A DNA stretch of 64,000 nt from Terramyces sp. JEL0728 (taxonomy: Eukaryota > Chytridiomycota > Chytridiomycetes > Rhizophydiales > Terramycetaceae), in NCBI GenBank assembly GCA_027603945.1, contig JADIIU010000004.1, forward strand, positions 186,001 through 250,000. The letters run 5' to 3'. Numbering within the stretch: position 1 is the stretch's first letter; every line of letters begins with the position of its first letter. A program made the translations under genes and the position numbers. The notes beneath the pieces were generated by a model. It searched no databases and had not been told where the DNA came from. It saw only the letters and a list, made by a program, of their open reading frames with translations. This document shows positions 1-64,000 of this stretch, piece after piece.

Positions 1-85
1 GGAATTGGTCCTGGCAGAAATGCTCCTCAAGCTGCCGCACCAGGCGTAGAAGTAACTATTGCTAACTTAGTGGGATCCAAACTAA
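1..85 (+). CDS. C-terminal end of an unidentified protein (5' partial)
   Basis: Reading frame 1 is open from the window edge and gives a Gly/Pro/Ala-rich tail ending APGVEWDPN. Read straight through, the frame would extend to about 105, but a 19-nt intron fits at 52-70: it starts GTAAC, carries a CTAAC branch box and ends TTAG, exactly like the introns of the neighbouring genes. Splicing gives a stop at 83-85. Too little is present to name the protein. The intron call rests on motif similarity alone, not on a protein alignment. Confidence 0.5.
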
Positions 86-192
86 ACAATATAAATACAG
101 TGTAACTAATAAAAATTTAAATATACTGAATCAGTCGGACTGGCTTGGAAAAGAATGAAAGTATTATTTACACGAGAAATTTCTTTGACGTC

Positions 193-1861
193 ATGAGTTT
201 TGCAACGATAGAACCGACAGTGATAGATGAAGAGCTAATTCGAAAAGCAATAAACGAACAGCTGAATCTGGAAATAGCAGAAATTGCCAAGAAGGAAGGC
301 GTGGATCCGGAAGAAGTACAATCCTTACGTCTCGATTACAAAAGTAGAAATCGCTAATCCAGATATCCTCAAAATTGATAATCTATGGATATATGAGAGT
401 ATTACAAAATTGCAGCTGGATAATAATATCATTGAGAAAATTGAAAATGTGAATTTCCTAAAGAATCTAAAATGGCTGGGTATCTACTTTCTAACAAGAC
501 CTCTCGTTTAATAACATCACTGAAATTGAAGGGCTGAATTCATTAACCAAACTCACGGATTTGACTTTATTCAACAATAGAATATCAAAAATTGGAAATA
601 TGGATGATCTCGTAAATCTGCAGGTATTCTCGATCGGAAACAACAACATACAAACCATAGAATCAGTAATATCTACTAATTTAGCTGGCATACTTGATCA
701 AATTCGAAAATCTACGTGTATTGAATTTGACTGGTAATCCAGTTCACAAAAACCCAAACTACAAAAACTACTGTCTGGCTCACTTTAAAAACCTCAAATA
801 TTTGGATTACAGATTAATTGACCAGGAATCAGTAATTATTTTTAATGAGATTGCGGTTGCTAGAGAAAAACACATTGATTCAATTATATCACAAGACGAA
901 GAAGAAAAGATTAATGCGAAGCGAAAGCAAGACCAGAAAGCAAAACAAGAATTAGATAAATTACACCAGAAAGCGCATATTCTTTATATTGACTCGCTGT
1001 TTGATAGAATGTTTGATGAAGACCAAGATTATAAGCGTTTATTGCCAATCGCTCCAGCTATTTTGTCTGATATGAAAGAGGAGTACAGGGCTAAATTTGA
1101 AATTGTAGTCAAGGAACTAAAACACTTTGTACTGAAAAAATCGCAAGAAAAGCAAGATGATACAAATGCTATTCAATCGTGCCTGGACTCTGTAAAATCA
1201 ACCAGTGACAAAGATTGCTTGAATAAGCTGGAATTATTCCATCATCAAAAGAAACAGGTAAATGAAACTAATGGAAGCTGATCAAAATAGTTCAAATCTC
1301 TCGTAATCCAAAAGAAATTGACGATACAATCAAGGAATTACGTGATACCACTGGAAACCTCTCAGACCATTTGATGAATGCTGAAATAATTATAGTCGAG
1401 CAATTTGAAGAAGTGCTCAAAGATTTTGAAAGAAGCTACACGGAAATTTGCAATTCAATAGGAGAATGTGGGCAGTCTTCGTTTGCAAGATTAAGAGACT
1501 TGGAGAATGAATATTTGGAAAAATTCACTGAAAATATCCAAGTTATGTATGAAAGATTCAACAAGGGTGACGCAGAAGACGTAGACGATGAGATAAGAGA
1601 TGTACGATCTGTCTAATCTAGATCATGAGCGACAAAGATGTGCTGATGAACGCAGTGAATTCTTCACACGATTTCAGAATGCTGAAATTGGATCAACAGG
1701 AAGATGGGCTAGTCACTGGATTGGCAAAAGATTTAGAATCTATCGTTAAAGACATGTATCAGAACGAAATCAAGAGAAATAGGGATAGAGTCGGTGAAAT
1801 ACTTGCCCTGCTCGGTAAGACCAATTCCGAAATTGATTTTGCAGAAGAAAACTCTTATTAA
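193..1861 (+). CDS. DRC3: Dynein regulatory complex subunit 3 (LRRC48)
   Basis: Component of the nexin-dynein regulatory complex of motile cilia. Exons 193-343, 363-479, 499-665, 685-1257, 1278-1601 and 1622-1861 give 523 aa. The start is the ATG opening [19 protein letters not shown], matching the family N-terminus. SDS22-like leucine-rich repeats follow at about residues 45-170 ([33 protein letters not shown]), ending in an LRR cap. The rest is coiled coil, with the conserved [13 protein letters not shown] region near the C-terminus. Five introns of 19, 19, 19, 20 and 20 nt interrupt it; each junction restores a conserved LRR or coiled-coil stretch (for example [15 protein letters not shown]). 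The length is close to that of animal DRC3 (about 520 aa). Its presence implies a flagellated life stage. Identity is very secure. Confidence 0.95.
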
Positions 1862-1884
1862 ATATAATATGTCTTGTTTCGCAT

Positions 1885-2040
1885 TTATTGGGTTAATAAT
1901 AAAAGAGGGTAACTTTTACTATGAATGTTTGCGAGCCACAAGTACCTAGGAGACAGATAATCCAACAGCGGGTTGAGATCTGCTTGGACAAGTTTGGAAA
2001 TTGCACATAGAAGCAAAAAAGCAGTGGAAAAGTCAATCAT
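1885..2040 (-). CDS. Possible 51-aa hydrophobic peptide ORF
   Basis: A short minus-strand ORF between two real genes. From its ATG it reads MIDFSTAFLLLCAISKL and could be a signal peptide or a single membrane span followed by a short tail ending PLLLLTQ. No family is recognised. A 27-nt GT...AG segment lies inside it in frame, so splicing cannot be decided. It may equally be untranslated 3' sequence shared by DRC3 and the phosphatase gene. Confidence 0.2.
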   Translation of the reverse strand: MIDFSTAFLLLCAISKLVQADLNPLLDYLSPRYLWLANIHSKSYPLLLLTQ

Positions 2041-2096
2041 CTTGCACCGCAGACAGTAATAGTTGGCATTTGACAAATTGAAACAAAACCACTTTA

Positions 2097-3125: not shown

Positions 3126-3553
3126 TTATATATCTGATTGGTGGCTGTAAAACACAAGCTTGTATCCGGGAACCCATTGAACAGCGACAAAATTGGCAGA
3201 GAATTCGCTTAAAACGAGAATCAGACGGTAATGATTGAACCAGTCGTGCAGCCAGCGTTAGTCTTTCCTCATTTCAATACCGAAGCGCTTTTCCTTGTAA
3301 ACTTGCTCTGAATCCATGCATCTCAATATATGAAATGGACTTTTTAGATATCAGGTTGGTCGGCAATATCATTTGCAAATTGCTACTTTTTGTCTTTTAT
3401 TCGGTCGAGCTTCTTTGAGTTCATATAAAAATAGTCTTTTGGGATCCGACTCTTTCCTATAAGTGGATTGGCTTATTGACCGAATTAGATATTAGAACGC
3501 TGGCAATATTATTATAGTGAGGATTCAACAAACCAATACAAGTAGATATTATC
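3126..3553. other. Divergent intergenic region, acid phosphatase / ATP23
   Basis: Start-to-start spacer of 428 bp between two divergently transcribed genes, so both promoters should lie here. ORFs crossing it are short and antisense to ATP23. No repeat, tRNA or other structured element was recognised. Confidence 0.5.
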
Positions 3554-4083: not shown

Positions 4084-4161
4084 TCCTAGATATTTTGTGA
4101 TAATCTCAAAGCCACACGTTGTTGATCTCCAAATCTCTCATGGAATATCTTGAAAAAAATA

Positions 4162-6469
4162 ATGCCTCCAAGGAGCTTCAGAATCCCAAATTACAATTCA
4201 TTAATTAATAATTTAAACCAGGTCTGGCAGCCGATTGGAAAGAAACCGCTAACTTTGGCAGAAAAGATTCTGTACGCGCATTTAGACTCTCCATTAGAAT
4301 CGCTGCCAACTAGAGGATCTACCTACCTTAAATTGAATCCAGGTACCTATTATTAACTATTAGATCGAGTCGCTATGCAGGATGCGTCTGCACAAACTGC
4401 ATTGCTGCAATTCATCCTCAGTAAAAAGAAAACAACTGCAGTACCATCCAGTGTTCACTGCGACCACTTGATTGCTGCACAAGTTGGTGCGGATAGCGAT
4501 TTGAAGCAGTCCATAATAACAAACAAGGAAGTTTTCAATTTCTTGCAAACAACCAGCAAGAAATATGGAATTGATTTTTGGGCACCTGGGTCTGGAATTA
4601 TCCACCAGATCGTATTGGAAAATTATGCAGCACCCGGAATACTATTGCTTGGTACAGATTCACACACTCCTAACGCTGGTGGATTAGGGATGATTGCGAT
4701 TGGTGTTGGGGGTGCTGATGCTGTTGATGCAATGGCAGGAATCCCATGGGAACTGAAAGCACCAAAAATACTGGGAGTTCGATTAACTGGAAAATTGAAT
4801 GGCTGGACTAACCCTAAAGATGTCATTTTACATATAGCAGGGAAATTAACTGTTCAGGGGGGTACAAATCATATTATTGAGTATTTTGGACCTGGAGTTG
4901 AATCTCTTTCTTGTACTGGCATGGCTACAATCTGCAATATGGGGGCTGAGGTTGGCGCTACCACTTCTCTGTTCCCATTCACCGACAGCATGAAGAGATA
5001 TTTAAATGCAACCAGGAGGGGCGATGCCGCAGAGGCAGCAGCCAAAGCAGCAGCTATGGGATATTTGCAGGCAGACAAAGGGGCAGAATACGATAAAGTG
5101 ATTGAAATTGATTTGTCAAAACTTGAACCGCACATTAATGGACCATTTACACCCGATCTCGCTTGGCCATTATCCAAGTTCAAAGAAGCAATTAAAGAAA
5201 ACAACTGGCCAACAGAGTTGTCTGCTGGTTTAATTGGATCCTGCACAAACTCTTCTTATCAGGATATGTGTAATGCAGCAGCAATTGCCAAACAAGCTTC
5301 AGATAAAGGAATCAAAGCCAAATCCAAATTCTTTGTTACCCCAGGATCAGAGCAAATTAGAGCTACCATCGAGAGAGATGGCATTATTTCAACTTTGGAA
5401 AATGTTGGTGGTGTGGTATTGGCAAATGCATGTGGTCCGTGTATCGGCCAATGGAAGAGAGATTTTGATGGTACCAAGGAAAATACAATCCTTACTTCAT
5501 TCAACAGAAACTTTAAGGCAAGGAATGACGGGTCTTCCAAAACTATGAACTTTCTAGCTTCGCCTGAAATTGTCACTGCAATGACATTTAGCGGAAGAAC
5601 AGATTTTAACCCAATTACCGATTCGCTCACTGACAAGGATGGAAAAGAATTCAAGCTACAGCCTCCAAAAAGCGATGATTTACCCTCCTCTGGATTTTTG
5701 GAAGGTCGCCCGGCATTTGGTTTCCCGATATCTTCAAATCCAGATGAGTCGATTGATATTGTGATCGCAAAGGAGTCTGACAGACTTCAACTATTGGAAT
5801 CGTTTGCTCCTTGGGATGGAAAAGAATTTGAAAACCTCCAATTGCTAGTTAAAGCAGAAGGAAAGTGTACTACAGACCACATTTCTGCAGCAGGAGTTTG
5901 GCTAAAGTACAAAGGACACTTGGAAAACATTTCCAAAAACACTCTCATCGGTGCAACCAACGCGTTCCACGGAAAAGTAAATGTTGCAAGAAATGCACTC
6001 ACGAACGAGGTAACTCAATTTTAATTCAGATGGACTCTATTCCAAACGTGGGATTTGACTACCGTGCACAAGGAATTTCATCTGCGATTATTGGTGACTG
6101 GAATTACGGCGAAGGTTCAGCTAGAGAACATGCAGCCATGCAGCCTAGATACCTTGGAAGTAAAATCGTCATTACCAGGTCGTTTGCGCGTATACACGGT
6201 AAATTATATTAACATCAGAAACCAACTTGAAGAAGCAGGGGATATTACCTCTGACATTCCAGGACGAAAAAGACTATGACCTTGTGCCTGAAAACTGTAC
6301 TTTGTCCACTAGAGGTGTAGTTGGAATTGCACCAAACTCGCCAGTATTCCTCACAGTCAAAACTGCAGAAAAGGAATTTGAAATTGAGCTGAAGCATACA
6401 ATGAGTGAAGATCAGATAGCATGGTTTAAAGCTGGAAGTGCATTAAACATGATTGCAAACAATGCATAA
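4162..6469 (+). CDS. ACO1: Aconitate hydratase, mitochondrial
   Basis: Citrate/isocitrate isomerase of the TCA cycle with a 4Fe-4S cluster. Exons 4162-4342, 4364-6009, 6030-6198 and 6219-6469 give 748 aa, normal for mitochondrial aconitase. Cluster cysteines are visible in [10 protein letters not shown] and ACGPCIGQW; the substrate-binding [11 protein letters not shown] block and the C-terminal SFARIH and [10 protein letters not shown] blocks are intact. Introns are 21, 20 and 20 nt with TTAAC, TTAAT and TTAAC branch boxes. The start is uncertain: the ATG at 4162 gives only a short leader ([12 protein letters not shown]), and an upstream exon carrying a presequence cannot be excluded. Confidence 0.96.
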
Positions 6470-6997: not shown

Positions 6998-7977
6998 ATG
7001 ATTGAAGCCAGTTATGTCATCTCGTATTCTGAAATGAACGCAGCCACTCTGGTTTTGTATAGCTGCTCCTGCCTTTTTGAACTTGGAGTCCTGCTGTTTT
7101 TGTTTATTGTTGAACGAAAAATACAGCCAACGTTCTGGAAAATAGCCTTTATATCAACCATGTGTATATTTTTCGGATTCAGCTTATCTCTGATTGGGTT
7201 TGTTACTACAAATGAAAATTTTGATTGTGCTATCAACAGAAAGGTCAGCTATTCGATCAGATACATTGGATTCCTGCTGTTTGATTACGCACAAGCTAGA
7301 AAGTTTATTCGAGTGTACGCAACCAGCTCAAAGTTCAAATCTTACTTGATATACGGAGCATTCGTGGTACGCATTCTTTCATACATTTACAATGCAGTCA
7401 TGGTATCTGGAGCAGTAGCATTTCATTCGGATAATGTAGTTGGCAAAGGTCCGTGTCAAACAGTATTTCAACCGTTTGATATTTACCAGGAACACGGGAT
7501 TTCGGTATTCTACGAACTGGTTTTAGTATCTATTCTTGCAATGTACGCATCACAACAAAGTGTCAAAGATAGCTTTGAATTCTCAAATTTTCTAAAGAAG
7601 ATCATGGATTTTGAAATGTACTGCTTTGCATTCTACTTTTTCTTTGAAGTTGTGTACCTCATAGTCTACTCGTTCTCTCCAAAGAATTTAGTCTCTGTGT
7701 TCAACATATTCTATTTGCAGATACCTGTAATGATTCTTAACCGCAGGTGGTCCTATTCTTTGCAAACACCGTGAATGTAATAGAAAGAAAGTGGGAGAGC
7801 AAGGACATGCTCTCAGGGAATGACGTGAGTAGAGCTGTAAGTACAAACAGACCGTCAAACAAAGATACGCCGGCCATATTCAGCACTAAAGACTATCCAG
7901 ACGTCCCTACGGCATTCGGAAGAAAGGAAACCGTCAAGCACGTAGTTGCGAAAGAAACAGTAAAGAAACAAAGCTAG
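6998..7977 (+). CDS. Seven-span membrane protein, paralogue A of a tandem trio
   Basis: Exons 6998-7726 and 7747-7977 give 319 aa. About seven hydrophobic segments fill residues 15-260, followed by a hydrophilic, Lys-rich tail of about 65 aa. The N-terminus is very short, which gives a GPCR-like topology, but I recognise no named family. Features shared with the two neighbours: IQPxFW after segment 1, GFVTTN, a DCxxNRK loop, QARKFxRxY, GPCQT, YQEH, KKIMDFEMY and FYLQIPVVLFFA. The two loop cysteines (DC and GPC) could form a disulfide. The 20-nt intron (branch TTAAC) splits the codons just after IP at the same place in all three copies. Confidence 0.85.
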
Positions 7978-8474
7978 CACAATTTCAACGAGCATTTTTC
8001 ACTGTCCATTGGATTGAATTTTTTTCTTGGAAATGGGTCAATTTTTGAAAGCAACAATAAATTAGATTTTTACAAAATACTGAATTCGTTAGTTACCAGT
8101 CCTAGAGCAGCGATACTAAAACTCATGGATAGAGCTAGTTTTTTGAAGATTGCCTTTTCGGTGTTAATGAAGTTTTTTGTGATTTCGCATACACCTTTGT
8201 AATCTGGTACTGGGTTTATGTGTAGCAATTCAGGATAATTGGTTAGAATCGAGGCTTCTTTAATTATATTCATCAGATTCTCAAATCATATGACGTCAGA
8301 CAGTTTTTGATGGTTTGTAGCCTGAAATCCAACCCAGACCAAGCAGTTATTTTGTGTAATACCTACGCTGATTTGGAATACAGGTACATGGGATACTGTG
8401 AATAACGGGACACGCATTGTTTGACATATGCCATAATACACGATTAAAAGTTGACATCACGAATCAAAAAAGAG
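7978..8474. other. Spacer between paralogues A and B
   Basis: 497 bp between tandem copies, A/T-rich. Only short overlapping ORFs on both strands, none with recognisable features. It presumably holds the A terminator and the B promoter. No sequence similarity to the B-C spacer (9482-9605) is obvious by eye. Confidence 0.4.
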
Positions 8475-9481
8475 ATGATTACAGTCGACTATATAATCTC
8501 TTACAAGGAGATGGATGCGGCCACGTTGGTGCTGTACAGTATCTCTTGCTTCTTTGAATTGTTGGCCTTGTTCTTTTTGGTTTATGTTAGGACAAAAATG
8601 CAGCCAACCTTTTGGAGACTGGCGACAATATCCACCGCATGTATATTAATAGGATTCTCATTATCTTTGCTCGGATTTGTCACTACTAACGAAGATATTG
8701 ACTGCACAATCAACAGGAAAATTAGCTATTCTATTCGGTATGTTGGTTTCCTCGCTTTTGACCTTGCTCAAGCTAGAAAATTCATCAGAGTTTATTCAGG
8801 AGGCTCTCAATTTAAAACTCGACTGATTTACGCTGCATTTATTGTGCGACTTCTTTCTTATGTGTACAACGCAGTTTATGTCGCTGGTGCTGTAGCCTTT
8901 GTGTCCAACGGCGCAGTAGGAATTGGACCATGCCAAACTGTATTCCATCCATACATGATTTATCAGGAACATGCGTTCTCTGTATTCTACGAATTTGTGT
9001 TGATTTATATCCTTGGACTCTACGCCAGCCAACAAAGCGCAAAGGACAGCTTCCAATTTTCTGATTTGCTGAAAAAGATCATGGACTTTGAAATGTACTG
9101 CTTTGCCTTTTATCTGCTTATTGAAATCTTATTCTTGTTCATCTATGCGCTTTCGCCCAAGAATCTGGTGTCCGTCTTCAATATATTCTACTTGCAAATA
9201 CCGGTAACCACCAGCTAACGTAGGTTGTTCTGTTCTTTGCCACCACTCTCAATATTTTAGAAAGAAAGAGTGAAAGCTATGATAGTGCCAAAAATCAGAG
9301 CAATAGCAAGGGACAAACATCGAGTGCTAACAAATCCAAAGGCCAGAGCACTGCCAATACCTCTGTACCTTCCGTTTTTGCTGCAAAGGAAATGATCGAT
9401 GTGCCATCCACTTTTGGTAAAACGGACACTCAATCTAAAATGCTGAAATCTGTTTCTGTAAAGGATTATCGAGGTAAATGA
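8475..9481 (+). CDS. Seven-span membrane protein, paralogue B
   Basis: Exons 8475-9203 and 9224-9481 give 328 aa. The first exon is exactly 729 nt, the same as in paralogue A. All signature blocks listed for copy A are present. The start is the ATG giving MITVDYIISYKEMDAATLVLY, aligned with copy A; an upstream in-frame TTG is ignored. The C-terminal tail is different and low in complexity (Ser/Asn/Lys-rich, NQSNSKGQTSSANKSKGQ), so the tail evolves faster than the membrane core. The 20-nt intron has a CTAAC branch box. Function unknown; a sensory or transport role is only a guess. Confidence 0.85.
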
Positions 9482-9605
9482 CGAGTTTCCCTTGGATCTG
9501 TCTTTGTATGTTTGAATAAATTTTCTCTTGACACGTTCTCATTGTACAGACAACAATGGATGATTATTCGACTCTACATGAAAAATAGTTTATCAACTGA
9601 TAGCG

Positions 9606-10688
9606 ATGATTCAATTTAGTTTTAGGATTCAATATGAAGAATTGCAGTTGGTAACACTAATCCTGTACATAATCTCAGTTGTTTTCGAAGCATGCGTCCT
9701 AATATATTTGATTACAATGAAGAGATATATACAGCCAATGTTTTGGAAATTGGCGACTATAAGCACTCTGTGTATTTTAGTTGGGTTTTCGCTGTCGCTC
9801 TTTGGATTTGTAACAACGAATGCAGAGTACGACTGTTCGTTAAATAGAAAAGTCAGTTATTCAATTAGATATATTGGATTCTATATGTTTGATTTGTCTC
9901 AAGCAAGGAAATTCTTTCGGATATATGCTTACGGGTCGAGAATAAAGATTCTCGTCATATACCTGGCACTCGCAATCCGGCTGGTGTCGTACGCCTACAA
10001 TGCAGCACTAGTACAAGGAGCTGTGGCATTTCTTTCGGATAACTCATCAACAAATGGCCCATGCCAAACAAGCTTCACATCAGGCTGCATTTACCAGGAG
10101 CACGCCATATCAGTTTTATTTGAAATCATATTACTTGGAATACTGGCCAATTACTCTACGAATCAAAAACACAACGGACTATTGCTTTCGGATCTATTAA
10201 AAAAGATTATGGACTTTGAAATGTACAGCTTTGTGTTTTACTTTGTTGCGGAAATCGTTTACCTCATCGCATATTCGTACTTTCCAAAGACGTTCGTGTC
10301 GATCCTCAACCTGTTTTACCTTCAGATACCAGTACGTTACAACTGACTGTAGGTAGTACTATTCTTTGCAAATACAATGAATAACTTGAGGAGGAAGAAA
10401 GATGTGTCGTCGATGGAAGGATTAAACTTTCCAAACCCGATTGCAAAGTCCATTCCAGAGGAGAAGTTGCCCAAAGATATACTACGGATGCATAAAGCCT
10501 CCGAAGAAGCAACCATAAAGGAGCTTCGGTCGATAAAAGCAAGCGGGAAGGTTTCTCGGCCTTCCAGAACGACACACGCTGAATTGTCAAGAATCCAATC
10601 AAGCTATCAAAGCTCTCACAGTGCACAGTTCCCTTCGAAAAGTGTTCAATTTAACCCAGATTCGATTTCTTTTAACCAATCAATGTAA
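9606..10688 (+). CDS. Seven-span membrane protein, paralogue C
   Basis: Exons 9606-10331 and 10353-10688 give 353 aa. It is the most diverged of the three but keeps GFVTTN, DCSLNRK, QARKFFRIY, GPCQT, YQEH and KKIMDFEMY. The intron is 21 nt with a CTGAC branch box at the same codon position as in copies A and B. The longer tail (about 110 aa) is basic and Ser-rich. Its stop lies only 15 bp from the stop of the convergent sugar-nucleotide transporter, so their 3' UTRs must overlap. Confidence 0.85.
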
Positions 10689-17750: not shown

Positions 17751-19956
17751 TTAATAACTTCTTCCCCATAAAGTGTAACTAACTGCCTTTTGTCCACAAG
17801 CAAAGCACTTTGTGTTTTCGTTTACACCGTCTTTTGGTTGTTCAAATGGAATACACAAGGTCTTTGCTCCCATAGATGGTGCCTTTTCATCTTGTTCGGC
17901 GCCGTCGTCGCTATGATTAATTAACAACTACGTTCTGGCCGATCGCTCTTTGACATCCTTTTCACAATCAACTCTTTCGCACCATGGAGACAAAATAATA
18001 TTCTTGTTGTTCAAGGTTTCAACAAAGCTATCCCAAGTCTCTAATCTAACCAAATGCTCATCGCGTTCCTTCTTTGCCTTTTGGAACATGTCCTTTTGAA
18101 TGACTTCCAACAGGTCGGCAATCGTTTCGCCAATATTTGCAAGAGAGAGTTGAACCTTTTCACCAGTGTCTCTACGAACAGATTTGGCTTCGCCTTTAGC
18201 AATATCCTTTGGCCCAATTTCGAGACGGATTGGTACACCCTATCATTAGTGGTTATTACTCTTAATTCCCAGTGGTTGAATTTGAATCCAGGAGTGTAGT
18301 TATCACGCAAATCTGAGTGAACCTTGATTCCAGCTTTTTTCAAAGTGCTGTGCAGTTTAGCGCATTCGTCATAAACTTTTTGCTTTTCTTCAGCAGAAGC
18401 TTTGGCAGGGATGCCGGAAGGAACAATGACTACCTGAGTCTTGGCAACTCTTGGTGGCATCACAAGCCCTTTGTTGTCGCCGTGAACCATAACCATGGCT
18501 CCAATGCTTCTGGTAGACAGCCCCCAAGAGTTTTGCCAAACAAACGATCTTTCTTTGTTTTCATTGTCGACAATGATTTCAAACATCTTGGAAAAGTTCT
18601 GGCCAAGTTGGTGAGAAGTTGCACCTTGGATAGCACGGCCAGTAGTTGGAATAAATCCTTCGACAGTGGTAGTGTAGTTGCCGCCAGCAAACTTTTCGTT
18701 TTCAGACTTTTTACCTGGAACAACAGGAACAGCAAGCAACTCTTCGTACACTCTTCTGTAGAGCTCAAGGATTTCCAAAACTTCTTTATCTGCTTCAGCT
18801 TCAGTTGCAAAGGCTGTGTGGCCCTCTTGCCACAAGAACTCTCTAGTTCTCAAGAATGGTTGCGGATGTTTGAATTCCCAACGAACCACACTGCACCATT
18901 GATTCAATCTCAAAGGCAAATCTCTGTGGCTTCTAATCCAAGTAGCATAGTATGGATACATGGCAGTTTCTGATGTTGGACGGATTGCAATTGGTTCAGC
19001 CAGATCCGATTGACCTCTATCCATTAATTGAAAATTACGCTCTGGTAACCCATGCAACTTCTGGTGAGAATCCTTCAATGTGGTCTTTTTCTTTGTTCAA
19101 CTTTCCTTCAGTTATAAACATTGGGAAATAGCAATCTTCCACTCCTAATTCTTCGATTTCAGATCCAAAGAATTGTTGGATTTTCTTCCAAACAGCAAAT
19201 GCGTTTGGTCTGATGATATAGCATCCAGAGACATCATAATAATCCAGCATTTCAGTTTTGGTCAACACCTGCTCATACCATTTTGGAAAGTTTTCTTCCT
19301 TGGTGACAGTTAAACCAATGATGACTTGAGATTCTATGTCAATCTAGGAATACCTTCGGTTTTTTCTGCTTCCTTTGTCTTTTTGGCCTTTGGTGAACTT
19401 GGAGCTGCAGCTGGAGCAGCAAGGTTATTAAAATCAACAGCTTGGTATTCTCCAGCATGGGCATCCAAAAACTTTTTGAATCCATCCGATTTTACAAAGA
19501 ATGTTTCAGTAGCAGAGAACGAACGGAAAGCAAGGTTCAATCCTGCATTGTTGGCCATACTTTCATCAACCACTACAGTAACTGAGGATTTATCTTGAAC
19601 ATTTTCAATTGCAAATGGGGTCACTACTATTAATTCCAATTACAGTTCAATTTATCGATCCCAAATGTGCTTGCAACCAAATCATCTGCAGCCATTCTAG
19701 CATCTTTATATCCCAATGATTTCGCAACATTTCCAACTGAAAAAGTTGACGTTGACAGTGCAACTACTAGGATGAGGTTGTTGTTTGGCCCTTTGGATGG
19801 TTTCAAGACCAATGTTTTCACTCCGTTAGCTTCTGACTCAATTGTCTTTACTGTGTCTACCCATGTGTTGAACGACTCAACTTTGCTGTGAGATTTAACG
19901 TCGAGTGCTACAGACAGTGATTTCAAAGTCTTGGCGACACCTTGTTGATTAGACAT
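17751..19956 (-). CDS. Prolyl-tRNA synthetase, cytosolic eukaryotic/archaeal type with N-terminal YbaK-like domain
   Basis: Class II enzyme charging tRNA-Pro. Exons 19956-19644, 19623-19354, 19333-19039, 19016-18260, 18239-17932 and 17910-17751 give 700 aa. Residues 1-170 resemble the YbaK/INS-like appended domain of yeast-type ProRS. Catalytic motifs: motif 2 region [18 protein letters not shown] and [21 protein letters not shown]; anticodon-binding domain with [21 protein letters not shown]-terminal CFACGQKA...WGRSY, as in eukaryotic ProRS. Introns are 20, 20, 22, 20 and 21 nt. An in-frame ATG at 20010 adds 18 residues (MTNLTPYFKSVKKFPTTK) that could serve as an alternative leader. Confidence 0.94.
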
Positions 19957-36072: not shown

Positions 36073-37217
<1,145 letters not shown>

Positions 37218-38353: not shown

Positions 38354-38459
38354 TGTTGCAAGTACAAGCGGTGCAAGTATCAGTCAGATATTTAAGATGT
38401 TGGGCTCATCTTTCTGTGGCCGTTCCAGCTCAAAAAGGAAATAGGGTGAAACAAGTTTA

Positions 38460-41268
38460 TTAAAGTTTTGCAAACCAATCGCCAACGGAAGTTTGCTCTC
38501 GCTCAACCCAAGCCAAGGCCGTTCGTGCTTTTTCAAGGTTCTGAGTCAATATACGGACACACCCTTCCAACTCCTTCTTTCTTTGTACTGCCTTTTCTTT
38601 GGCCAAGTTTGTTCCGTCGATAAAGTTTTCAGTGAACAAAACCCTGTCTCTCGACAATTTGCATTTGAGATAGCCGACAAGAAGGATTGACAGTATATAA
38701 GCTTGGGTCTTGTAAAGTTGGTAGATATGATCCCAATTGGAAACCACATAGTCTTTGATATAATCTTGTAATTCATCGGCAAAGTCAGATTGATTCGCGC
38801 ATAGTGATGTGTACAGGTACACGACATCACCACTCTTGATCTTATCTGAATCAAACAAGAACTGTTCAACAACTACCTTTGCAATATTGATGTCATTGGT
38901 CTTGCCCAAAGCGCGCAGTGCATCAGCTTTGATTTCTGGGTTTCCTCCGGTCTGGTACAAGTTATATAGAAAATCAAAGTCTTTTTGCGGTGTTTCGGAT
39001 AATCCAATTCCAGCTGTAAAGACCAATGCTTGAATATTTGGATGGAAAGAGTTTTCGTCACCTTCACGGAATTTCAAATACAAAGATAATAAATGCTGTT
39101 CAACAGACTGAACTTTTGCTGAACTTGCGGTAAGAATAGACAAAGTTCGCACAGCAGCCAAGTTTTCGTCTTCTCCTTCAGGATAGTCATAACCAAGCTG
39201 TGTAACCTTTCCAGCAAAGATTGTTGCTGAAAGAGCATCAATGCCTTTCAAGACTTTATCATCTGCTACCCAAGCCTTTTTGAGGGTTTCACAGCAGCCA
39301 TTTACCTTTCGAAGAACACTAATGTCAGAAAAATCTTACGTGATATCGGTTTCATTCGACAAACCGTTTAATACGTCCAATGCGCCAGTAGTTGAAGTTA
39401 ATCCAGCCTCAGCGAACGAGAAGACATCCATGAGAATTTCTAATCTATCGGTAACAGCAAAGAGTTCAGGGAAATTCTTTAATGCCTTGCTGATACTTAC
39501 CAATTGCTCGTTGCTATAGTTTACTCTGAAAAGTGCCTGGCACGAACTGTTGAGCTTCCAGAATGAAGTCTCATTTTCTTCATAGTCAAAGGTTATTTCT
39601 CCAACCTTTTCATTAAACAAAAAGTTTTCGCCATGTACACCATTGCTGGTCAACACATATATTGGGATAGACCAAATTGATCCACTTCCTTCCTCTTCTT
39701 CAGTCAAATCCCCAGTCGCCAAGAATCTTTTTTGCTGCAAAGTCAAAGTAAGTTTTTTGGTTTCCACATCGTATTTTTCGCCAGTGATAGTAACCATAGG
39801 ATAGCCTACATCGCCAATCCACTCCTTCATCAATTTTGCGACATCTTGGCCAGAGACTTCAGAGCAAGCGTTCCACAAGTCAATAGTGGTAGCATTCTTG
39901 TATGCAAACTTCTTCAAGTACAAGCGTACTCCATTCATGAAATTCTCAGCACCGAGGTAAGAGCTGATCAATCTGATGACGGAAGCACCTTTGGCGTACG
40001 AGATACCATCAAAGATCTGGTCAATGTCTTTTGGGGTACTAACTTCAACTTCTATTGGATGGCTGGAACGGAGACCATCGAGGCTGAAAGCAATCCCCAT
40101 GTTGCTTCCAACGAATTCGTCAAATGTTTTCCATTCAGGAAAGTTTTTGTCAACGGCAAAGATACCAACGTATGTTGCAAACCCTTCATTGAGCCAAAGT
40201 TCTTTCCACCAGTCCATAGTTACCAAATTGCCAAACCATTGATGAGCAAATTCGTGACATACGACTAATATTAAAACAAAGTACCTTCAGCAACCATTCT
40301 TTTGGCAGAAATACTGGTGTTGTGTCCATCAACAAGAAGAGCTACGTCTCTGTATGTAACCAACCCCCAGTTTTCCATTGCTCCTGCAGAAAAATCTGGG
40401 ATTGCAATCTGATCCATTTTTGGCAAAGGATATTTAATATCAAAGTACTCGGAAAAGAATTCAAGAGTTTTGGTTCCAACGTCAAGGGCAAACCTTCCTT
40501 GTTCTTTCTTTCCTGGCAGTGTGTACACTCTACAAGTTACAGGTTGTGCATCTGCTGGTGATTTTGGATTAGCAACTCCTTCAATGTATTCAAATTCTCC
40601 AATGCAGAATGCCAAAAGATAGGAAGACATGATTGGAGTGGTGGCATATTTGAATGATCTGAGAGTTTTTGCACCAAACTCGACATCCTTTTCTTCAATA
40701 ATATTCATGTTGGACAATGCAGTCAACCCTGGAGGAACTAAAAGTTGGACATCATAAGTTGCCTTGCGGTTAGGTTCATCCAACAAGGAAAACATCTTCT
40801 AGCGTCCGCAGCTTCAAATTGGGTGGTAACCAAGTATTTCTTTGAACCATCTTCTGCCAAATATGATGAACGGTAGAAGCTTTTCAAATCATCACAGTGA
40901 GTTCCTGCAAATTCAATGTGCAACACGACATTTGATATAGCTGGAATCTCATGTTCAAATTCCATTGTAGCAGTTTCTTGATCAACATCTATTGAAATTG
41001 AATTAGCGATTTGGGCTGCCCTGTGTGTTGTCGCATCTTTTGGCCATGCATCAACTCTAGGCAAACCGCCTGGGTTGACTCTGAATACAACAACAGAAGC
41101 CTTTGAGATAGACAAATCTCTAACATTTGTTACCAATGTTTTTGTTGGTTCAGAAATAGTTAAACTTATGGAAACCTGCCCCGTAAACTTTCCAGATTCC
41201 AATCCAGGGACCAGAGTCAAGTTGTAGTGAGTTGGTTTTGCGCTTGAAGGTAGAAGCCTGCTGGTCAT
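38460..41268 (-). CDS. M1 zinc aminopeptidase, copy 1, with a one-base frameshift
   Basis: Puromycin-sensitive/APE2-type aminopeptidase. Exons 41268-40285, 40264-39340 and 39318-38460; about 922 aa once one missing base is allowed for. The catalytic GAMENWG and HEFAHQWFGN...NEGFATY are intact. The frame breaks near 40780: copy 2 reads a run of three C on the plus strand (43921-43923) where copy 1 has two, so the first ORF runs out of frame right after RRCFPCW and resumes at DEPNRKATY. Introns are 20 and 21 nt. Because everything else is open, this is either a very recent lesion or a homopolymer sequencing error. The C-terminal ERAP-like exon differs clearly from copy 2. Confidence 0.85.
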
Positions 41269-41574
41269 TCATGATTTTTTAGTTTGGCGCTTTTTATACA
41301 TATTTTTGTGTAACCTGAATGACTCAGTTCCCACGAAACTTTAATTAGTACCAATTCTCCATAAACATCAAGGAAGTTAGGTTGCTAAGGGGAAAGTTGT
41401 GAATTCAACGTGAGTAGGGCTGAGCATTGACCAGGAGTGCAGATTAAGTATGCCAGAATCAAGTATAGTTTTGGAGACTTGTGTTTGGTAGTACCAAAAA
41501 GAGTATCCAAATGACTCACACGGCGGTAATTGGAATGATGGATAGGGTAGCAGACAACACACTATTTTATTAAT

Positions 41575-44416
41575 CTACAGCTTTGCAAATCCATTCAATA
41601 CAAACCAATCCGCAACGGAAGTTTGTTCTCTTTCCATCCAAGCAGCAGCACTTTTTGCGCTTTCCAAATGTTGGTTCAACGACCTGCTGAAGCCTTCGAC
41701 TTGTTTCTTGCGCAAAGCAGCTTCTTCTTCTGGGAGACCTTCGCCAGCAGCCCAGTTTTCAATGTGGTTGATAGTTTCCCTTGTCAAGTTTGCGAAAACG
41801 TGCACAATAGGAACAACGCTCAATCTTGCTGCCTGGGATTCAAATTTAGCGTAAATTTTGGACCAATTGGCATTTTCGAATACCCAATCTTTGCTGTGGG
41901 TTCGAATTTCAGATTTCAATCCAGAAGCTGGATGCATAACCAAAGTCATGTATGGGCCAAAGGCGTCTTGCGGTCTGATTTTATCTGCCTCAAAGATGTA
42001 TTCTTCAAGCAATCTTTTGGCAAGAGTTAAATCATTGGTTTTGCCCAATGCGTTAAGAGCGCTGCTTTTGATTCCTGGGTTTCCTCCGGTCTGGTACAAG
42101 TTATATAGAAAATCAAAATCTTCTTGAGGAGTATCAGATCGTTCATTTCCGCAAGCGAATACAAGCCCTCTAATGTTGGAGTGGAACGCGTTTTCTTCAC
42201 CATTTTTGAATTTCAAGTAGCGGGATTTCATTTCTTCTTTGACTTTTACATCCCCTGCATTCACAACTACTTCAATTGCAAGAGTTCTAATTGAGGAAAC
42301 AGTCTCGTCTTCTCCTTCAGGATAGTCATAACCAAGCTGTTCAACCTTTTCTGAAAAAATGGACAAAAGTAAAGCATTAATTCCTTCCACAACTTGTTTG
42401 CTTGAAGACCATGTACGTCTGATCTTTGCACAGCTGCCACTGATCTTCTCCAACACTCTATAATATTAATATTTGCGTACCTTAGATCAGTTTCAGCAGA
42501 ATATCCTTTCAAGATTTCCAAAGCACCAGTAGTTGAAGTTAATCCAGCCTCAGCGAACGAGAAGACATCCATGAGAATTTCTAATCTATCGGTAACAGCA
42601 AAGAGTTCAGGGAAATTCTTTAATGCCTTGCTGATACTTACCAATTGCTCGTTGCTATAGTTTACTCTGAAAAGTGCCTGGCACGAACTGTTGAGTTTCC
42701 AGAATGAAGTCTCACTTTCTTCATAGTCAAAGGTTATTTCTCCAACCTTTTCATTAAACAAAAAGTTTTCGCCATGTACACCATTGCTGGTCAACACAGA
42801 TATTGGGATAGACCAAATTGATCCACTTCCTTCCTCTTCTTCAGTCAAATCCCCGGTCGCCAAGAATCTCTTTTGCTGCAAAGTCAAAGTAAGTTTTTTG
42901 GTTTCCACATCGTATTTTTCGCCAGTGATAGTAACCATAGGATAGCCTACATCGCCAATCCATTCCTTCATCAATTTTGCGACATCCTGGCCAGAGACTT
43001 CAGAGCAAGCGTTCCACAAGTCAATAGTGGTAGCATTCTTGTATGCAAACTTCTTCAAGTACAAACGTACTCCATTCATGAAATTCTCAGCACCGAGGTA
43101 AGAGCTGATCAATCTGATGACGGAAGCACCTTTGGCGTATGAGATACCATCAAAGATCTGGTCAATGTCTTTTGGGGTACTAACTTCAACTTCTATTGGA
43201 TGGCTGGAACGGAGACCATCGAGGCTGAAAGCAGTTCCCATGTTGCTTCCAACGAATTCGTCAAATGTTTTCCATTCAGGAAAGTTTTTGTCAACGGCAA
43301 AGATACCAACGTATGTTGCAAACCCTTCATTGAGCCAAAGTTCTTTCCACCAGTCCATAGTTACCAAATTGCCAAACCATTGATGAGCAAATTCGTGACA
43401 TACGACTAATATTAAAACAAAGTACCTTCAGCAACCATTCTTTTGGCAGAAATACTGGTGTTGTGTCCATCAACAAGAAGAGCTACGTCTCTGTATGTAA
43501 CCAACCCCCAGTTTTCCATTGCTCCTGCAGAAAAATCTGGGATTGCAATCTGATCCATTTTTGGCAAAGGATATTTAATATCAAAGTACTCGGAAAAGAA
43601 TTCAAGAGTTTTGGTTCCAACGTCAAGGGCAAATCGTCCTTGTTCTTTCTTTCCTGGCAGTGTGTATACCCTACAAGTAATTGGCTGTGCATCTGCTGGT
43701 GATTTTGGATTAGCAACTCCTTCAATGTATTCAAATTCTCCAATGCAGAATGCCAAAAGATAGGAAGACATGATTGGAGTGGTGGCATATTTGAATGATC
43801 TGAGAGTTTTTGCACCAAACTCGACATCCTTTTCTTCAATAATATTCATGTTGGACAATGCAGTCAACCCTGGAGGAACTAAAAGTTGGACATCATAAGT
43901 TGCCTTGCGGTTAGGTTCATCCCAACATGGGAATGCTCTTCTGGCATCTGCAGCTTCAAATTGGGTGGTAACCAAGTATTTCTTTGAACCATCTTCAGCC
44001 AAATATGATGAACGGTAGAAGCTTTTCAAATCATCACAGTGAGTTCCTGCAAATTCAATGTGCAACACGACATTTGATATAGCTGGAATCTCATGTTCAA
44101 ATTCCATTGTAGCAGTTTCTTGATCAACATCTATTGAAATTGAATTAGCGATTTGGGCTGCCCTGTGTGTTGTCGGATCTTTTGGCCATGCATCAACTCT
44201 AAGCAAACCGCCCGGGTTGACTCTGAATACAACTGCAGAAGCTTTTGAAACTACCAAGTCTTTGGCATTGGCAACAAGAATCTTTGTTGTTTCGGTAACA
44301 GTCAAACTAATAGAAACTTGCCCTGCAAACTTTCCAGATTCCAATCCAGGAACCAGAGTCAAGTTGTAATGTGTCGGCTTGGCGAATAGTGGAAGCAATC
44401 TTCTCGTTACAGTCAT
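41575..44416 (-). CDS. M1 zinc aminopeptidase, copy 2, intact
   Basis: Exons 44416-43426, 43405-42481 and 42457-41575 give 932 aa. Cytosolic M1 aminopeptidase of the APE2/AAP1/PSA group that trims N-terminal residues from peptides. Exopeptidase motif GAMENWG, zinc site HEFAH with the third ligand in NEGFATY, and the downstream Tyr region are present; no signal peptide. The middle exon is 925 nt in both copies. Introns are 20 (TTAAT) and 23 nt. Head-to-tail with copy 1, 306 bp apart. Confidence 0.95.
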
Positions 44417-48567: not shown

Positions 48568-50064
48568 TTACGCTTTAACAATCTTATCAATTGCAGAAAT
48601 CAAGCGGGTCATGTCACCCTTGAGTGCAGCTGCATAACGTAAAACCTTGTCCTTGGTGTCGAGAACTTCAACTGACTGAGTGAGTGCATTGTAATTCACA
48701 GCAAAAGGACGGTGTAGATGGGCCGCAAATTCTCTATTGTTAAAATAAACTACTTGACTTCATCCTTCATCTGCTTGAAACTGTCGGCAACGAAATATAC
48801 TGGTTGGAAAGAGGTGATTGGATATTCTTGTACACCCATAACATCGCAGTTGAAAGGCAGGAGCTTTGGTTTATCCGATAAGCAATATTCCAATTCACCA
48901 AAACTAGACAAAAGACCTGCTCCATATGCCTTGATTTCTTTTCCTTGCTTGCACAATCCAAACTCAACCGTGAACCAGTAAATCTAAGGTAAATACAGTA
49001 AAAACCGTGGCCAATTTCTTTAAATCCTAACATTAAGGATAACTTACCTCATCTGAAGCACCGAGCGATGCTAAACCGATTTCATGTGAAAAAGAAGCAA
49101 AGTCTGGGTCGGCATAAAGTGGGACATGCCCAAGTAATTCGTGGCACACATCTGGCTCTGGAGTATAGAATGGAGCACTGTGGTGACGAATATACTGGGT
49201 AGAATGGAATACTCTGAATGCCAAAGCGTTCAAGAAATCACGGCTAGACAGGAGCCCCATCACTGGTCTAATGGTCCATCCGGTACAATCTATATTAGCG
49301 AAACACACCTTTCAAGAATTTCGAAATATCTTCAATTTGAGGGATATTGTGCTCGCTATATCCACAATTTTGTTCCAATAGTGGAAAGATATAGTTGTCT
49401 ACGTTACTGCCAACTTACGTTCAAAACAGGCATGGGTCTTGTACATACTGCGGAGCTTACGGTATACAATCCCCCTGGTATTAATTAACTTTTACCAAGT
49501 TTCAATTTCCTTCTCAGTGTATTCAACGTGGGGCAATGGATTGCCGTGTCTGTAGGTCAATGCTTGGTTGGTAATCATCTGTCTCCTTTCTCTGTAAGCT
49601 GGATCTTTGAAACCGGGATGATCTGCCTCCAATTCCTGGATTTAACGAGAAATTACAGAACCATAAGACAGCACTTTTTCTGCAAAGGAATCCAAATCAC
49701 TAATCTTTCTAGGGAACCATGGTACTTGTCCCACACCGGCATCGTCCTCACCACTGACAATTCGAACTTCCTTTGTCTTCCTTTTAATTTCCTGCAATGC
49801 GGTCTTTACAAGATTTGGCTCTGCAGTGAAATCAACAAAAAAATCATAATCGCCCTTGGTTTTTGATGGTCTGGATTCGATGCTTGTCAAAGAAATGCTC
49901 AAGTTGCGCAAAGTGTTGAGAATATTTTCCAATGCACCAACTCTGTCAGAAACAGAAAAGTAAACCGTGGTCCTTTCTGTTTTGCTAGTGTAGAATCGAG
50001 TGATGAGCCTCCTATTCAGCGATTGTAATGTTGCATTGGAGAACCTGAATGTGTTGGCAAACAT
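48568..50064 (-). CDS. PAH: Phenylalanine 4-hydroxylase with ACT domain and mitochondrial-type presequence
   Basis: Tetrahydrobiopterin-dependent iron enzyme making tyrosine from phenylalanine. Exons 50064-49657, 49635-49496, 49474-49419, 49398-49309, 49289-49048, 49026-49006, 48983-48754 and 48733-48568 give 450 aa. Leader [20 protein letters not shown], then ACT domain ([19 protein letters not shown]), then the catalytic core: [21 protein letters not shown] [61 protein letters not shown] (iron His pair), [30 protein letters not shown]. Seven introns of 21, 21, 20, 19, 21, 22 and 20 nt; exon 6 is only 21 nt. PAH is rare in Fungi, and a presequence is unusual. Confidence 0.95.
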
Positions 50065-53775: not shown

Positions 53776-53811
53776 TTAAAAATAGAAAAAAGGCGGGCGG
53801 ATTCAAAAAAT

Positions 53812-55147: not shown

Positions 55148-55183
55148 GAACGCGAAAAACAAAAATTTCAAAATACCAGTCTA

Positions 55184-57358: not shown

Positions 57359-57368
57359 AAGTTTTATT

Positions 57369-58571
57369 TTATACGCGATGATAGTTTGCTGGTACAAATG
57401 GCATTTTGGTAACAGTAGCCTTTTGCATCTTGTTTCTTACTTTGACTTGCAATTCAGTTCCTTGTTTATGGAATCCATTTTCTACGTAGCCCATAGCAAT
57501 GTTCTTTTTAAGAGTTGGGGATGGGCAGCCGCTGGTGATTTCGCCAATCTTTTTGCCGTCGGCATAGATTTCAGTATGCTCTAATGTTAAATTAAAGCAC
57601 CTCTTGCTGGGGCACCTTCTACGACCAACCCGATTCTTCTCTTTGAAACACCTCCTTTAATTTGAGGCAGGATCTTATCAGCACCCAAGAATCCACCTTC
57701 TTTTCTTCTTCTTTGTCCAATTGTCCAAGTCAACGCTCCTTCAACTGGAGTAATGTCTTCATCCAAATCGTGTCCATAAAGGCATAATCCAGCTTCAAGT
57801 CTTAAACTATCTCTAGCGCCTAAACCAGCCAGTTCAACGTCCGGATGATTTAACAAAGTTTCTGTCAATCTAACAGCTTTTTCATGCGGAACAGAAATCT
57901 ACAATCAAATAAAAATCACTTCAAATCCATCTTCGCCAGTATAACCGCATCTAGATACATAGCATGGAATACCAGCCAATTCAATTTTTTGTGCAGTCAT
58001 GAATGCGAATTTGGAAAGATCAGCTTTAGCCAAACCTTCAACGACTTTTGCAGCGCTAGGACCCTGAATAGCAATCAATGATACGTGATCTAATACATCG
58101 ACGTTGACTTCACCACCATTCTTTTTGAAAATAGCTAGTTGCTCTCTAATATGCGCGAGATCTTTGTCAGCACATCCAGCATTGGAAACGACATAGAATG
58201 CATCCTCGCTTTCCTTGTTGATAACTGTATCATCAATAATACCGCCGTTTGCATTGGTAAACACTGAAAGGGTGGAAGATCCAACTGGCAAATTTACCAA
58301 ATCTGCAACCACAAGAGTTTCCAGGAATTTCACATGATCCTTTCCAGTCCATCTTGATTAACATGAATTACTTTGTCTGAAGCATATGAGATACATCAAA
58401 TATAGACGCTTTTTGTCTGGTCCAGCTGTGAGAAGCGAGTGCACCTAAATTGGAGTAACTTACTGGCATATCCCAACCAGCAAAGTCTACCATTTTCCCT
58501 CCATTCTTGACATGGAAATCGTACAGCTTGGTTTTCTTGAATAATGCTGTAGCAGTTGAAAATCTTTTCAT
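57369..58571 (-). CDS. GCV1: Aminomethyltransferase, glycine cleavage T protein, mitochondrial
   Basis: Transfers the methylene group of glycine to tetrahydrofolate in the glycine cleavage system. Exons 58571-58372, 58352-57920, 57898-57600 and 57579-57369 give 380 aa. Presequence [16 protein letters not shown], then [87 protein letters not shown] and [20 protein letters not shown]. Introns are 19, 21 and 20 nt. Complete and typical in length. Confidence 0.95.
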
Positions 58572-58904
58572 TTGTCGATTAGGTAAGATTCGTAAAAGGA
58601 AATTTTATGAAAACACCAGTTGATTAAAACAGGAAACTCTTAGATGTGATTCTTGAGGTTCTTATAGAGAAACCGAATTCAATTATCCTGGGATAGATTT
58701 TGCAGATTGACAGGCATTCAGACTGGAACTAATTGCATTCGATTTGTGTAGATTTCAATCTCTTGTGCATAGCAGATTATCAAGCTGCCATATACACTCA
58801 AGTTTATATGATAATGATTTAGTTGGCAGACCTATGCCAGTATCTTGAACGTGAAGCTGCTGCTATATTTCGGCTATCTTGACGTAATTTTTTGCAAATT
58901 AAAA
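58572..58904. other. Divergent intergenic region, GCST / CCDC174
   Basis: 333 bp between divergent starts. An in-frame TTG-initiated extension of CCDC174 reaches 58845 but has no ATG. Nothing else recognised. Confidence 0.4.
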
Positions 58905-59615: not shown

Positions 59616-59631
59616 CCATCTGCGATCAAAA

Positions 59632-60651: not shown

Positions 60652-60696
60652 TTAAAAACACGAAAAAAAGTAGAGTGCAATTAATTTATATTACAG

Positions 60697-62512: not shown

Positions 62513-62696
62513 TTCTTTTTTGTTGAAAAAATACAGCGAAAAAAGAAACAAGTTTATTAGTTGCCTTCATCTTGCAATTTCACTTGAAGGGAGATTGCAT
62601 CAAATAGATTCTAAATTAAAATGGAAATACCCATGCATAAGCTACCGCAACCAAAAGTATTTTAAAATTCATTAGGAAAATTTACGCGATTTTTAT

Positions 62697-63486
62697 TTAA
62701 TAGCGATCATAGTCTCTTCGCTTGTCATCCCTTCGATCTCTACGATCTCGTCTGTCATCATATCTATCCCTCCTTTCATAATCCCGTTCGCGGTACTCTC
62801 TCGGCTTGGACGCTCTGGCAGCTTCTTCTGGTCTGGGATTCAATATTTGGATTGATAGTTTCTGCGCTTGGAATAATTCTCTCTTCAAATCTTTTGTCAC
62901 TTGTTTTAAATGCATAAAGTTGCAAAATCCTCCCCTGGTACATTCTGCATTTTCATATTGCCTACAGCATGCTAAATTAGTATTAATCACCTTCATTAAA
63001 ATCAGTGACTGGTGATAATTCGGCATACAGCGGTCTGCCAGCATAGAATCTGGAGTTCAAGGAGTCGCAAGCTTTCCCTGCATCTTCCTCGTACTTGAAT
63101 CTTATATAAACATCTATATGAGCAATACTTACTTCCTACTAGATGATCTCCCACATTATCACATATATTCATTTCTTCAATCTCTCCATATTTCGCCAAC
63201 TCCATAAAAATATCTTCAAAAAACAAATCGAAATCATTTTGCAATTCATAAGGATTCATTCTGCATCCGATTAGATTTCCTGGGTTCTGATATAAATTTG
63301 GCAGTAGCAGCGTTTGTGAAAAGTTTGGTTTTACATGCTTGCGAGAGCACTGGTTAATTAAAAGCTACCTTTTCACCATGACGACAAGCGCCGATTTTGA
63401 AATAAAAGGAACAGTTTACTTTATCCTTTTCTGTGCCGTAGATGGAAGCTAAATGATCTTGAGTTAATAATTTACTTGCCTGCCAT
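62697..63486 (-). CDS. U2AF1: U2AF small subunit (U2AF35)
   Basis: Recognises the AG at the 3' splice site. Exons 63486-63480 (7 nt), 63457-63369, 63349-63133, 63113-62991 and 62971-62697 give 236 aa. Zinc finger 1: [64 protein letters not shown]; zinc finger 2: [20 protein letters not shown]. The usual RS domain is replaced by an Arg/Asp-repeat tail ([17 protein letters not shown]). Introns are 22 (GC-AG, with the consensus CAG|GCAAGT donor), 19, 19 and 19 nt. All key residues intact although the introns it must serve have no pyrimidine tract. Confidence 0.96.
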
Positions 63487-63875
63487 TTTGTGATCAGGAA
63501 AAAGAAATTTCAGAAATTCAACTTTAAGATACCCACTAATGAGCCAGCGATAGACTGGAAAGATATTAGCAGCTATGGGACATTAAGGAGTATTCTAGAA
63601 GCAACTAGAATATCAAGTTTTACACCCTGATATTAGCGAATAGACAGGCGCTAATAATTAACTACTGAGGCAAAGAATCTGAGAGATACTTGTGCTGGAG
63701 AAATATTTCAATACTTTGGTTACTTTCACTAGCCACAAATATTTTCCAGCCACAAATCTTGAGTGACATCTGATTGGTCGGAGGCTAAATGCTCCGGGGG
63801 AAAGAGAAAAAAACAAAGATGGATTTTTCGCCTTTCAAGCTCAGCGCTAAATACAAAACAGATTAGTTGCCCAGC
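63487..63875. other. Divergent intergenic region, U2AF1 / RPS10
   Basis: 389 bp between divergent starts. A GAAATTTCAGAAATTC word lies 20-35 bp upstream of U2AF1. No further element recognised. Confidence 0.4.
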
Positions 63876-64000
63876 ATGCTCATTTCAAAAGACAACCGTA
63901 AGCAAATTTATCAATATCTTTTCCAAGAAGGTGTATTAGTCGCCCAAAAGGACTACAATCTTCCATTACACCCTGAAATCAAAGTCCGCAACCTCGAAGT
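63876..64000 (+). CDS. RPS10: 40S ribosomal protein S10 (eS10), 3' partial
   Basis: The frame opens MLISKDNRKQIYQYLFQEGV and continues LVAQKDYNLPLHPEIKV, the N-terminus of eS10 (winged-helix protein at the 40S mRNA entry). It runs off the window edge in frame. No intron motif in the visible part. Confidence 0.93.
   Translation, partial: MLISKDNRKQIYQYLFQEGVLVAQKDYNLPLHPEIKVRNLE

Follow-up and report, generated by a model that had tools for sequence, protein, structure and literature searches.

Probable U2-type introns of about 18–22 nucleotides throughout the sampled genome of the chytrid Terramyces sp. JEL0728

We have analyzed a stretch of 64,000 nucleotides (nt) of the chytrid fungus Terramyces sp. 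JEL0728 (Rhizophydiales, Terramycetaceae), hereafter the window, which spans positions 186001-250000 of contig C4 in an assembly of 15.0 Mb and 231 contigs. Its genes are interrupted by segments of about 20 nt with the appearance of introns, as an initial annotation had proposed. In seven genes, encoding DRC3, aconitase, prolyl-tRNA synthetase, homoisocitrate dehydrogenase, phenylalanine hydroxylase, aminomethyltransferase and the splicing factor U2AF35, 31 of these introns were fixed by aligning the joined protein to homologues. They measure 18 (1 intron), 19 (8), 20 (11), 21 (8) or 22 nt (3), all within the range of 18-25 nt that the initial annotation gave for 102 of its 103 introns. Thirty have GT-AG ends and one has GC-AG; a YTNAY box is present in 29 of the 31, the two exceptions being TTAAA and GTAAC. 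The seven joined frames lack internal stops; for prolyl-tRNA synthetase this covers codons 1-707, because its gene model (g8) overran into neighbouring genes. Retention would be invisible for two of the 31, which are stop-free and a multiple of three in length.

DRC3 and aconitase lie on the plus strand. The six DRC3 introns were fixed against 11 chytrid DRC3 proteins picked from 1,056 matches, and the joined protein is 91% identical to DRC3 of Boothiomyces macroporosus. The first three, put forward as examples in the initial annotation, prove to be exact 19-nt GT..AG segments at 344..362 (box CTAAT), 480..498 (CTAAC) and 666..684 (CTAAT). They are followed by introns 4 (832..849, 18 nt, TTAAT), which contains no stop when retained, 5 (1258..1277, 20 nt, CTAAT) and 6 (1602..1621, 20 nt, CTAAT), just upstream of which the Kappamyces protein lacks 7 amino acids. 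The three aconitase introns at 4343..4363 (21 nt, TTAAC), 6010..6029 (20 nt, TTAAT) and 6199..6218 (20 nt, TTAAC) were fixed against 1aco.

The remaining five genes are encoded on the minus strand. Prolyl-tRNA synthetase is split at 19624..19643 (20 nt, TTAAT), 19334..19353 (20 nt, TTGAC), 19017..19038 (22 nt, TTAAT), 18240..18259 (20 nt, CTAAT; gapless junction) and 17911..17931 (21 nt, TTAAT), the last with a 2-amino-acid gap nearby against 8je5 but none against Boothiomyces. In homoisocitrate dehydrogenase the introns occupy 36943..36963 (21 nt, TTAAT), 36766..36785 (20 nt, TTAAT) and 36297..36317 (21 nt, TTAAT, with a GTT donor). The third has no stop when retained, and our own gene model at first did retain it, giving 7 surplus amino acids compared to 3ty3. 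Phenylalanine hydroxylase contains seven introns within a stretch that aligns gapless with 5den: 49636..49656 (21 nt, with the off-consensus box TTAAA), 49475..49495 (21 nt, TTAAT), 49399..49418 (20 nt, off-consensus GTAAC), 49290..49308 (19 nt, CTAAT), 49027..49047 (21 nt, TTAAT), 48984..49005 (22 nt, GTT donor, TTTAC) and 48734..48753 (20 nt, TTAAC). Its fifth and sixth introns flank a micro-exon of 21 nt (49006..49026), which is likewise aligned without gaps. Aminomethyltransferase carries introns at 58353..58371 (19 nt, TTAAT), 57899..57919 (21 nt, TTGAT) and 57581..57600 (20 nt, TTAAC; a 1-amino-acid gap follows 6 amino acids beyond).

The U2AF35 gene (62697..63486), whose product is known to recognize the AG at the 3' end, has four tiny introns itself: 63458..63479 (22 nt, TTAAC), 63350..63368 (19 nt, TTAAC), 63114..63132 (19 nt, CTCAT) and 62972..62990 (19 nt, CTAAT). 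The first, with donor GCAAGT, is the GC-AG intron, so that this exception sits within the gene for U2AF35. A further case is provided by three tandem paralogues resembling membrane proteins (6998-10400), which share one intron site with introns of 20, 20 and 21 nt; these show 20-50% ungapped identity to each other, and the flanking 60 nt show 55-75%.

The same length class emerges from the distribution of splice motifs. When a GTA donor paired with YTAAY N0-3 AG was counted in the window at lengths of 14-60 nt, 24, 25 and 12 pairs were found at 19, 20 and 21 nt, compared to means of 1.57, 1.50 and 1.83 in 30 dinucleotide shuffles, and all remaining lengths yielded 0-5 pairs each. With GT and a YTRAY box, the top peaks combine 19 nt with a 2-nt spacing between box and AG (22 pairs), 20 nt with 2 nt (20) or 3 nt (23), and 21 nt with 3 nt (15). 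Minor peaks at 16 nt (2-nt spacing, 16 pairs) and 17 nt (3-nt spacing, 12 pairs) were rejected as genuine classes, as they disappear against mirrored sequence once GTA is demanded; they probably start from GTs that lie within genuine introns at +5.

A wider sample consisted of 20 stretches of 10 kb, each at one fixed position on contigs C1-C3 and C5-C21, that is, a non-random choice of the longest contigs covering 1.3% of the assembly. Shuffles and mirrored sequence served as controls; lengths were counted singly from 14 to 30 nt and in bins from 31 to 300 nt. In these 200 kb, 56, 91 and 47 motif pairs occur at 19, 20 and 21 nt, compared to 14, 8 and 9 in the mirror and 4.1-4.5 in shuffles. 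At none of the lengths of 14-18 and 22-30 nt does the count reach double that of the mirror. The bins covering 31-300 nt are close to the mirror or below it (largest excess 8.8 versus 8.5), with both above the shuffles. Motif-bearing introns up to 300 nt form, on 264 kb, a narrow class without a longer one. Pairs of 19-21 nt are present in all 20 sampled contigs, at 3-17 per stretch, in agreement with the commonest sizes and the genome-wide spread originally claimed.

The same class appears in gene models. A motif-free finder that accepted any GT..AG of 15-80 nt without length preference placed 46 of its 81 window introns at 18-25 nt. Applied to the 200-kb sample with 14-60 nt allowed, it predicted 225 introns, of which 28, 50, 22 and 15 measure 19, 20, 21 and 22 nt. 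A box-aware finder restricted to 14-30 nt produced 32 models in the window, some surely wrong, with 111 of 120 introns at 18-25 nt. A model that allowed introns up to 150 nt was discarded because it fused the window into two genes. The coding sequence modelled in the 200-kb sample totals 154 kb and is interrupted by 365 model introns. This amounts to about 2.4 per kb, so that intron number is not small; for comparison, two chytrids average 3.93 in a partly available survey (PMC8476143).

Removal of the segments also restores the reading frame. We asked whether the best coding frame downstream of a motif match fits removal or retention, requiring coding flanks and using codon scores trained on the window gene models; of the 257 matches of 19-21 nt, 194, or about three quarters, come from outside the window. 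Removal accounts for the frame in 80 of the 83 matches of 19-20 nt, retention in 2 and neither in 1. For matches of 23-45 nt whose length is not a multiple of three (n = 42), 9 fit removal, 26 retention and 7 neither. The removal frame has no clear excess from 31 to 300 nt; its highest share is found at 201-300 nt, with 59 removal, 52 retention and 37 neither (n = 148). The strand points the same way: the coding strand carries 221 of the 252 matches that measure 19-21 nt, compared to 27 of 56 at 14-17 nt. An in-frame stop is contained in 56 of 70 introns with a length divisible by three and in 148 of 264 others. We make no claim of selection for such stops, because finders based on open reading frames read stop-free introns of this length as coding, as happened in homoisocitrate dehydrogenase.

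The anatomy of the introns was derived from a high-confidence set (exons of 45 nt or more on either side and a model score above 30), which 361 of 485 model introns of any length passed. The donor consensus of the 322 with 18-22 nt reads A(56) G(49) | G T A(88) A(55) T(51) T(64), percentages in brackets; at +5, T reaches 51% and G only 20%. A pyrimidine (T or C) immediately precedes the AG in 81%. A good box is present in 276 introns of 18-23 nt; the branch A is nt 14 or 15 in 226 of these, its distance to the intron end is 5 or 6 nt in 216, and the acceptor is the first AG past the box in 262. The layout described initially, GTA followed by a (C/T)TAA(C/T) box, thus holds, with the box about 10 nt past the donor and 2-3 nt before the AG. 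The absence of a pyrimidine tract holds as well, since 5-6 nt between branch and end leave it no room. Instead, the stretch upstream of the branch is U-rich, with T at 35-64% from +5 to +11. U12-type introns have an RTATCCTTT donor and a TTCCTTRAC branch, which the GTAATT donor and YTAAY box do not resemble.

Several spliceosome components could be located. One U2 small nuclear RNA (snRNA) was identified at 140 bits, in which the branch-pairing GTAGTA is kept. U2AF35, encoded in the window, shares 88% identity with the Globomyces protein across 84% of the query. U2AF65 is found on contig C2 (L039, from 44938) with four tiny introns in its gene model, and it matches solved structures over RRM1-RRM2, the UHM and the U2AF35-binding region. 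The RNP1 strand of its RRM1 reads HCH, compared to FAF in human U2AF65, where these residues stack on RNA.

Based on the intron layout, the narrow length class, frame restoration, insert-free homologues, the U2 snRNA and the genes for U2AF35 and U2AF65, we consider it very probable that U2-type GT-AG introns have been reduced to about 18-22 nt across the whole of the genome sampled from this Terramycetaceae chytrid. The motif, frame and homology tests confirm the original observation and support its reading as widespread U2-type introns in a fungus, here a chytrid of the Rhizophydiales, with one GC-AG exception. An intron consists of little beyond an R|GTAATT donor, an adjoining YTRAY branch box with its A at nt 14-15, 2-3 further nt and the first AG. 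In the mechanism we propose, it would be excised from RNA by an otherwise conventional spliceosome. The donor would be read by U1 and later by U6 and the box would pair with U2, with hardly any spacer between the sites. The constant spacing of donor, branch and AG may substitute for the pyrimidine tract in providing selectivity. U2AF35 would recognize the first AG past the branch, while U2AF65 may be anchored via protein contacts or on the U-rich stretch ahead of the branch.

Some results weigh against this picture. Removal from RNA is inferred from the genome sequence, and the frame test is uninformative for introns with a length divisible by three. No good box is present in 58 of 334 high-confidence model introns. 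The pattern GTA N9 YTAAY N AG (20 nt, 1-nt spacing) has no excess in the whole genome, with 172 matches versus 231 in the control; these introns do not use that spacing, theirs being 2-3 nt. U1 snRNA was not found in the assembly, either by a covariance search, which came back empty, or by pattern searches: a canonical U1 5' end occurs at four places, none of which Rfam calls U1 up to E = 5. U6 snRNA was not recognized in the assembly by one covariance search and four patterns. The former gave two weak matches of 27 bits against a cut-off of 44, of which L005 appears coding; both were rejected. The patterns gave nothing convincing, with 12 of 17 places inspected for one and 12 places of another that could not be read. 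U6 may be split by introns, changed, or located outside the assembly. An Rfam scan at gathering score of the window and 7 of the 20 sampled stretches returned nothing. A protein search of the assembly for RED had no match and 0 candidates, which is no proof of absence. The accessible part of PMC12862383 names Smu1 as factor for a short donor-branch distance and cites a work with RED in its title. The negatives for U1, U6 and RED do not prove absence, because the prokaryotic control genomes gave no matches either.

The factor that sets the 3' end is the point where an alternative deserves most attention. U2AF might not be the reader of the tiny introns, its genes persisting for other reasons, with a different UHM factor, such as SPF45/RBM17 bound to SF3B1, defining the 3' end instead. 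We lean against this possibility but take it seriously. U2AF-dependent human splicing is described as needing at least eight pyrimidines, and SPF45 is proposed to act in place of U2AF in human short introns, in the portion of that study at hand (PMC8363638); in most Terramyces introns only the above 5-6 nt separate the branch A from the end. The HCH in RRM1 of U2AF65 would fit such a replacement too. However, both U2AF subunits are well conserved, and a U-rich stretch does precede the branch.

Far less probable is that the segments are not RNA introns at all, but are removed at the DNA level in another nucleus or skipped during translation. Their size alone is compatible with this, and splicing is deduced here from genomic data, but the GT-AG ends, the constant position of the branch box and the choice of the first AG are spliceosome signals, and the U2 snRNA and U2AF are present. 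To our knowledge, neither DNA elimination in chytrids nor such a translational bypass in nuclear genes has been described. Gene models fitted to chance motifs or sequencing errors are the most improbable explanation of all, for although the box-aware finder errs, as with two doubtful introns that it placed near 40763-40830 in a gene at 38384-41268, the excess over shuffles and mirror, the 80 of 83 matches in the frame test and the 31 homology-fixed junctions stand against it.

The shrunken introns leave traces in public proteins. Our joined DRC3 equals the public Terramyces sp. JEL0728 DRC3 at every aligned residue, but the identity drops to 89% when gaps are counted. The public protein lacks the 39-amino-acid exon 363-479 between introns 1 and 2, lacks 14 amino acids before intron 3, as expected from a 61-nt intron at 624-684, and retains intron 4, translated as VIIFNE. 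The match with the public Terramyces prolyl-tRNA synthetase starts only at intron 3, and that protein is fused to a neighbouring HMG-box gene, as our own model g8 was. Among the 11 aligned DRC3 proteins, residues are missing or added at tiny-intron junctions in five (Terramyces, Boothiomyces macroporosus, Boothiomyces JEL0866, Kappamyces JEL0680 and Globomyces JEL0801), while such signs are absent from six (Polyrhizophydium, Entophlyctis helioformis, two Batrachochytrium, Gorgonomyces and Borealophlyctis). In addition, U2AF35 of Boothiomyces JEL0866 lacks nine residues at intron 3 (63114..63132). Because residues differ at their DRC3 junctions, Globomyces and Kappamyces are indirectly suggested to share tiny introns at the same places.

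It is conceivable, though we would call it doubtful, that a clade of Rhizophydiales comprising Terramycetaceae, Globomycetaceae and Kappamycetaceae has independently cut its introns down to about 20 nt but retained a large number of them together with full U2AF, and that donor reading has shifted in parallel from G to U at +5, as in Stentor, perhaps alongside compensating changes in U1 or U6. If true, such altered RNAs may explain why standard searches missed both.

Introns of this kind are known from other lineages. In the text available to us, PMC10245619 gives 18-21 nt for nucleomorph introns of chlorarachniophytes (Bigelowiella), 15-16 nt for heterotrich ciliates and 16-17 nt for Mikrocytos, and PMC12316389 terms a 23-nt intron of Trichomonas one of the shortest known. 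The Terramyces introns are thus among the shortest known, the shortest being found in other lineages; the initial description of them as near the physical limits of splicing was slightly overstated in view of the heterotrichs and Mikrocytos. The Bigelowiella nucleomorph is equal in size range and narrow spread (again from the accessible part of PMC10245619), but it is a relict algal nucleus inside another cell, whereas Terramyces presents the nuclear genome of a flagellated fungus, with 15 Mb assembled. Stentor resembles Terramyces in being a free-living cell that retains GUAGUA in U2 and for which U2AF2 and U2AF1 are listed, and its commonest intron, GUAAUUUUUAUAUAG, shares the GUAAUU donor, similar to the loss of G at +5 seen here (PMC9505925, consulted in part). 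Its introns are shorter, however, at 15-16 nt, and their branch region is described in those passages only as U-rich, whereas Terramyces has a clear YTRAY box. Mikrocytos mackini has a narrow size class of 16-17 nt with conserved sequence as well, but, as far as the sections seen of PMC10245619 go, it is a parasite whose spliceosome is strongly reduced and whose introns number 224, in contrast to the 365 model introns in 200 kb of Terramyces. Paramecium and Nyctotherus have ultra-short introns only, of about 25 nt (PMC5014332); these are longer, and the genome is a ciliate macronucleus.

Among fungi, the portion consulted of a survey of 644 genomes, with two Chytridiomycota in its density table, terms a mean of 63 bp relatively short; this is the mean of Cryptococcus neoformans, which has many short introns that are on average about three times longer than those of Terramyces (PMC8476143). 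Passages of three chytrid genome papers mention no such sizes (PMC5364385, PMC13391722, PMC6572847), and we found no report of comparable ultra-short introns in a fungus or chytrid in the open-licence literature. We regard the Terramyces introns as a new and probably independent case of a known kind, surprising by its host.

With Terramyces, a flagellated fungus with thousands of ordinary genes joins the few lineages near the lower limit of intron size and offers a chance to test a minimal geometry of donor, branch and AG. As six of the 11 DRC3 relatives, Batrachochytrium included, are free of the above signs, the shrinkage could be traced on a short tree. Skipped exons, retained introns and truncations in the public proteins of Terramyces and its relatives may meanwhile mislead comparative work.

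Two further observations concern duplicated sequence. The gene at 38384-41268 mentioned above belongs to a pair of adjacent, near-identical genes (38384-44416) that we take to resemble M1 aminopeptidases, and this copy looks disrupted near 40763-40830. Among the matches listed in the whole-genome pattern search, identical 20-nt matches recur 10-62 kb apart on the same contig and strand in C18, C27, C37, C38 and C44, and a similar recurrence with one base different is found in C26; these represent either large duplications or haplotypes misjoined in the assembly.

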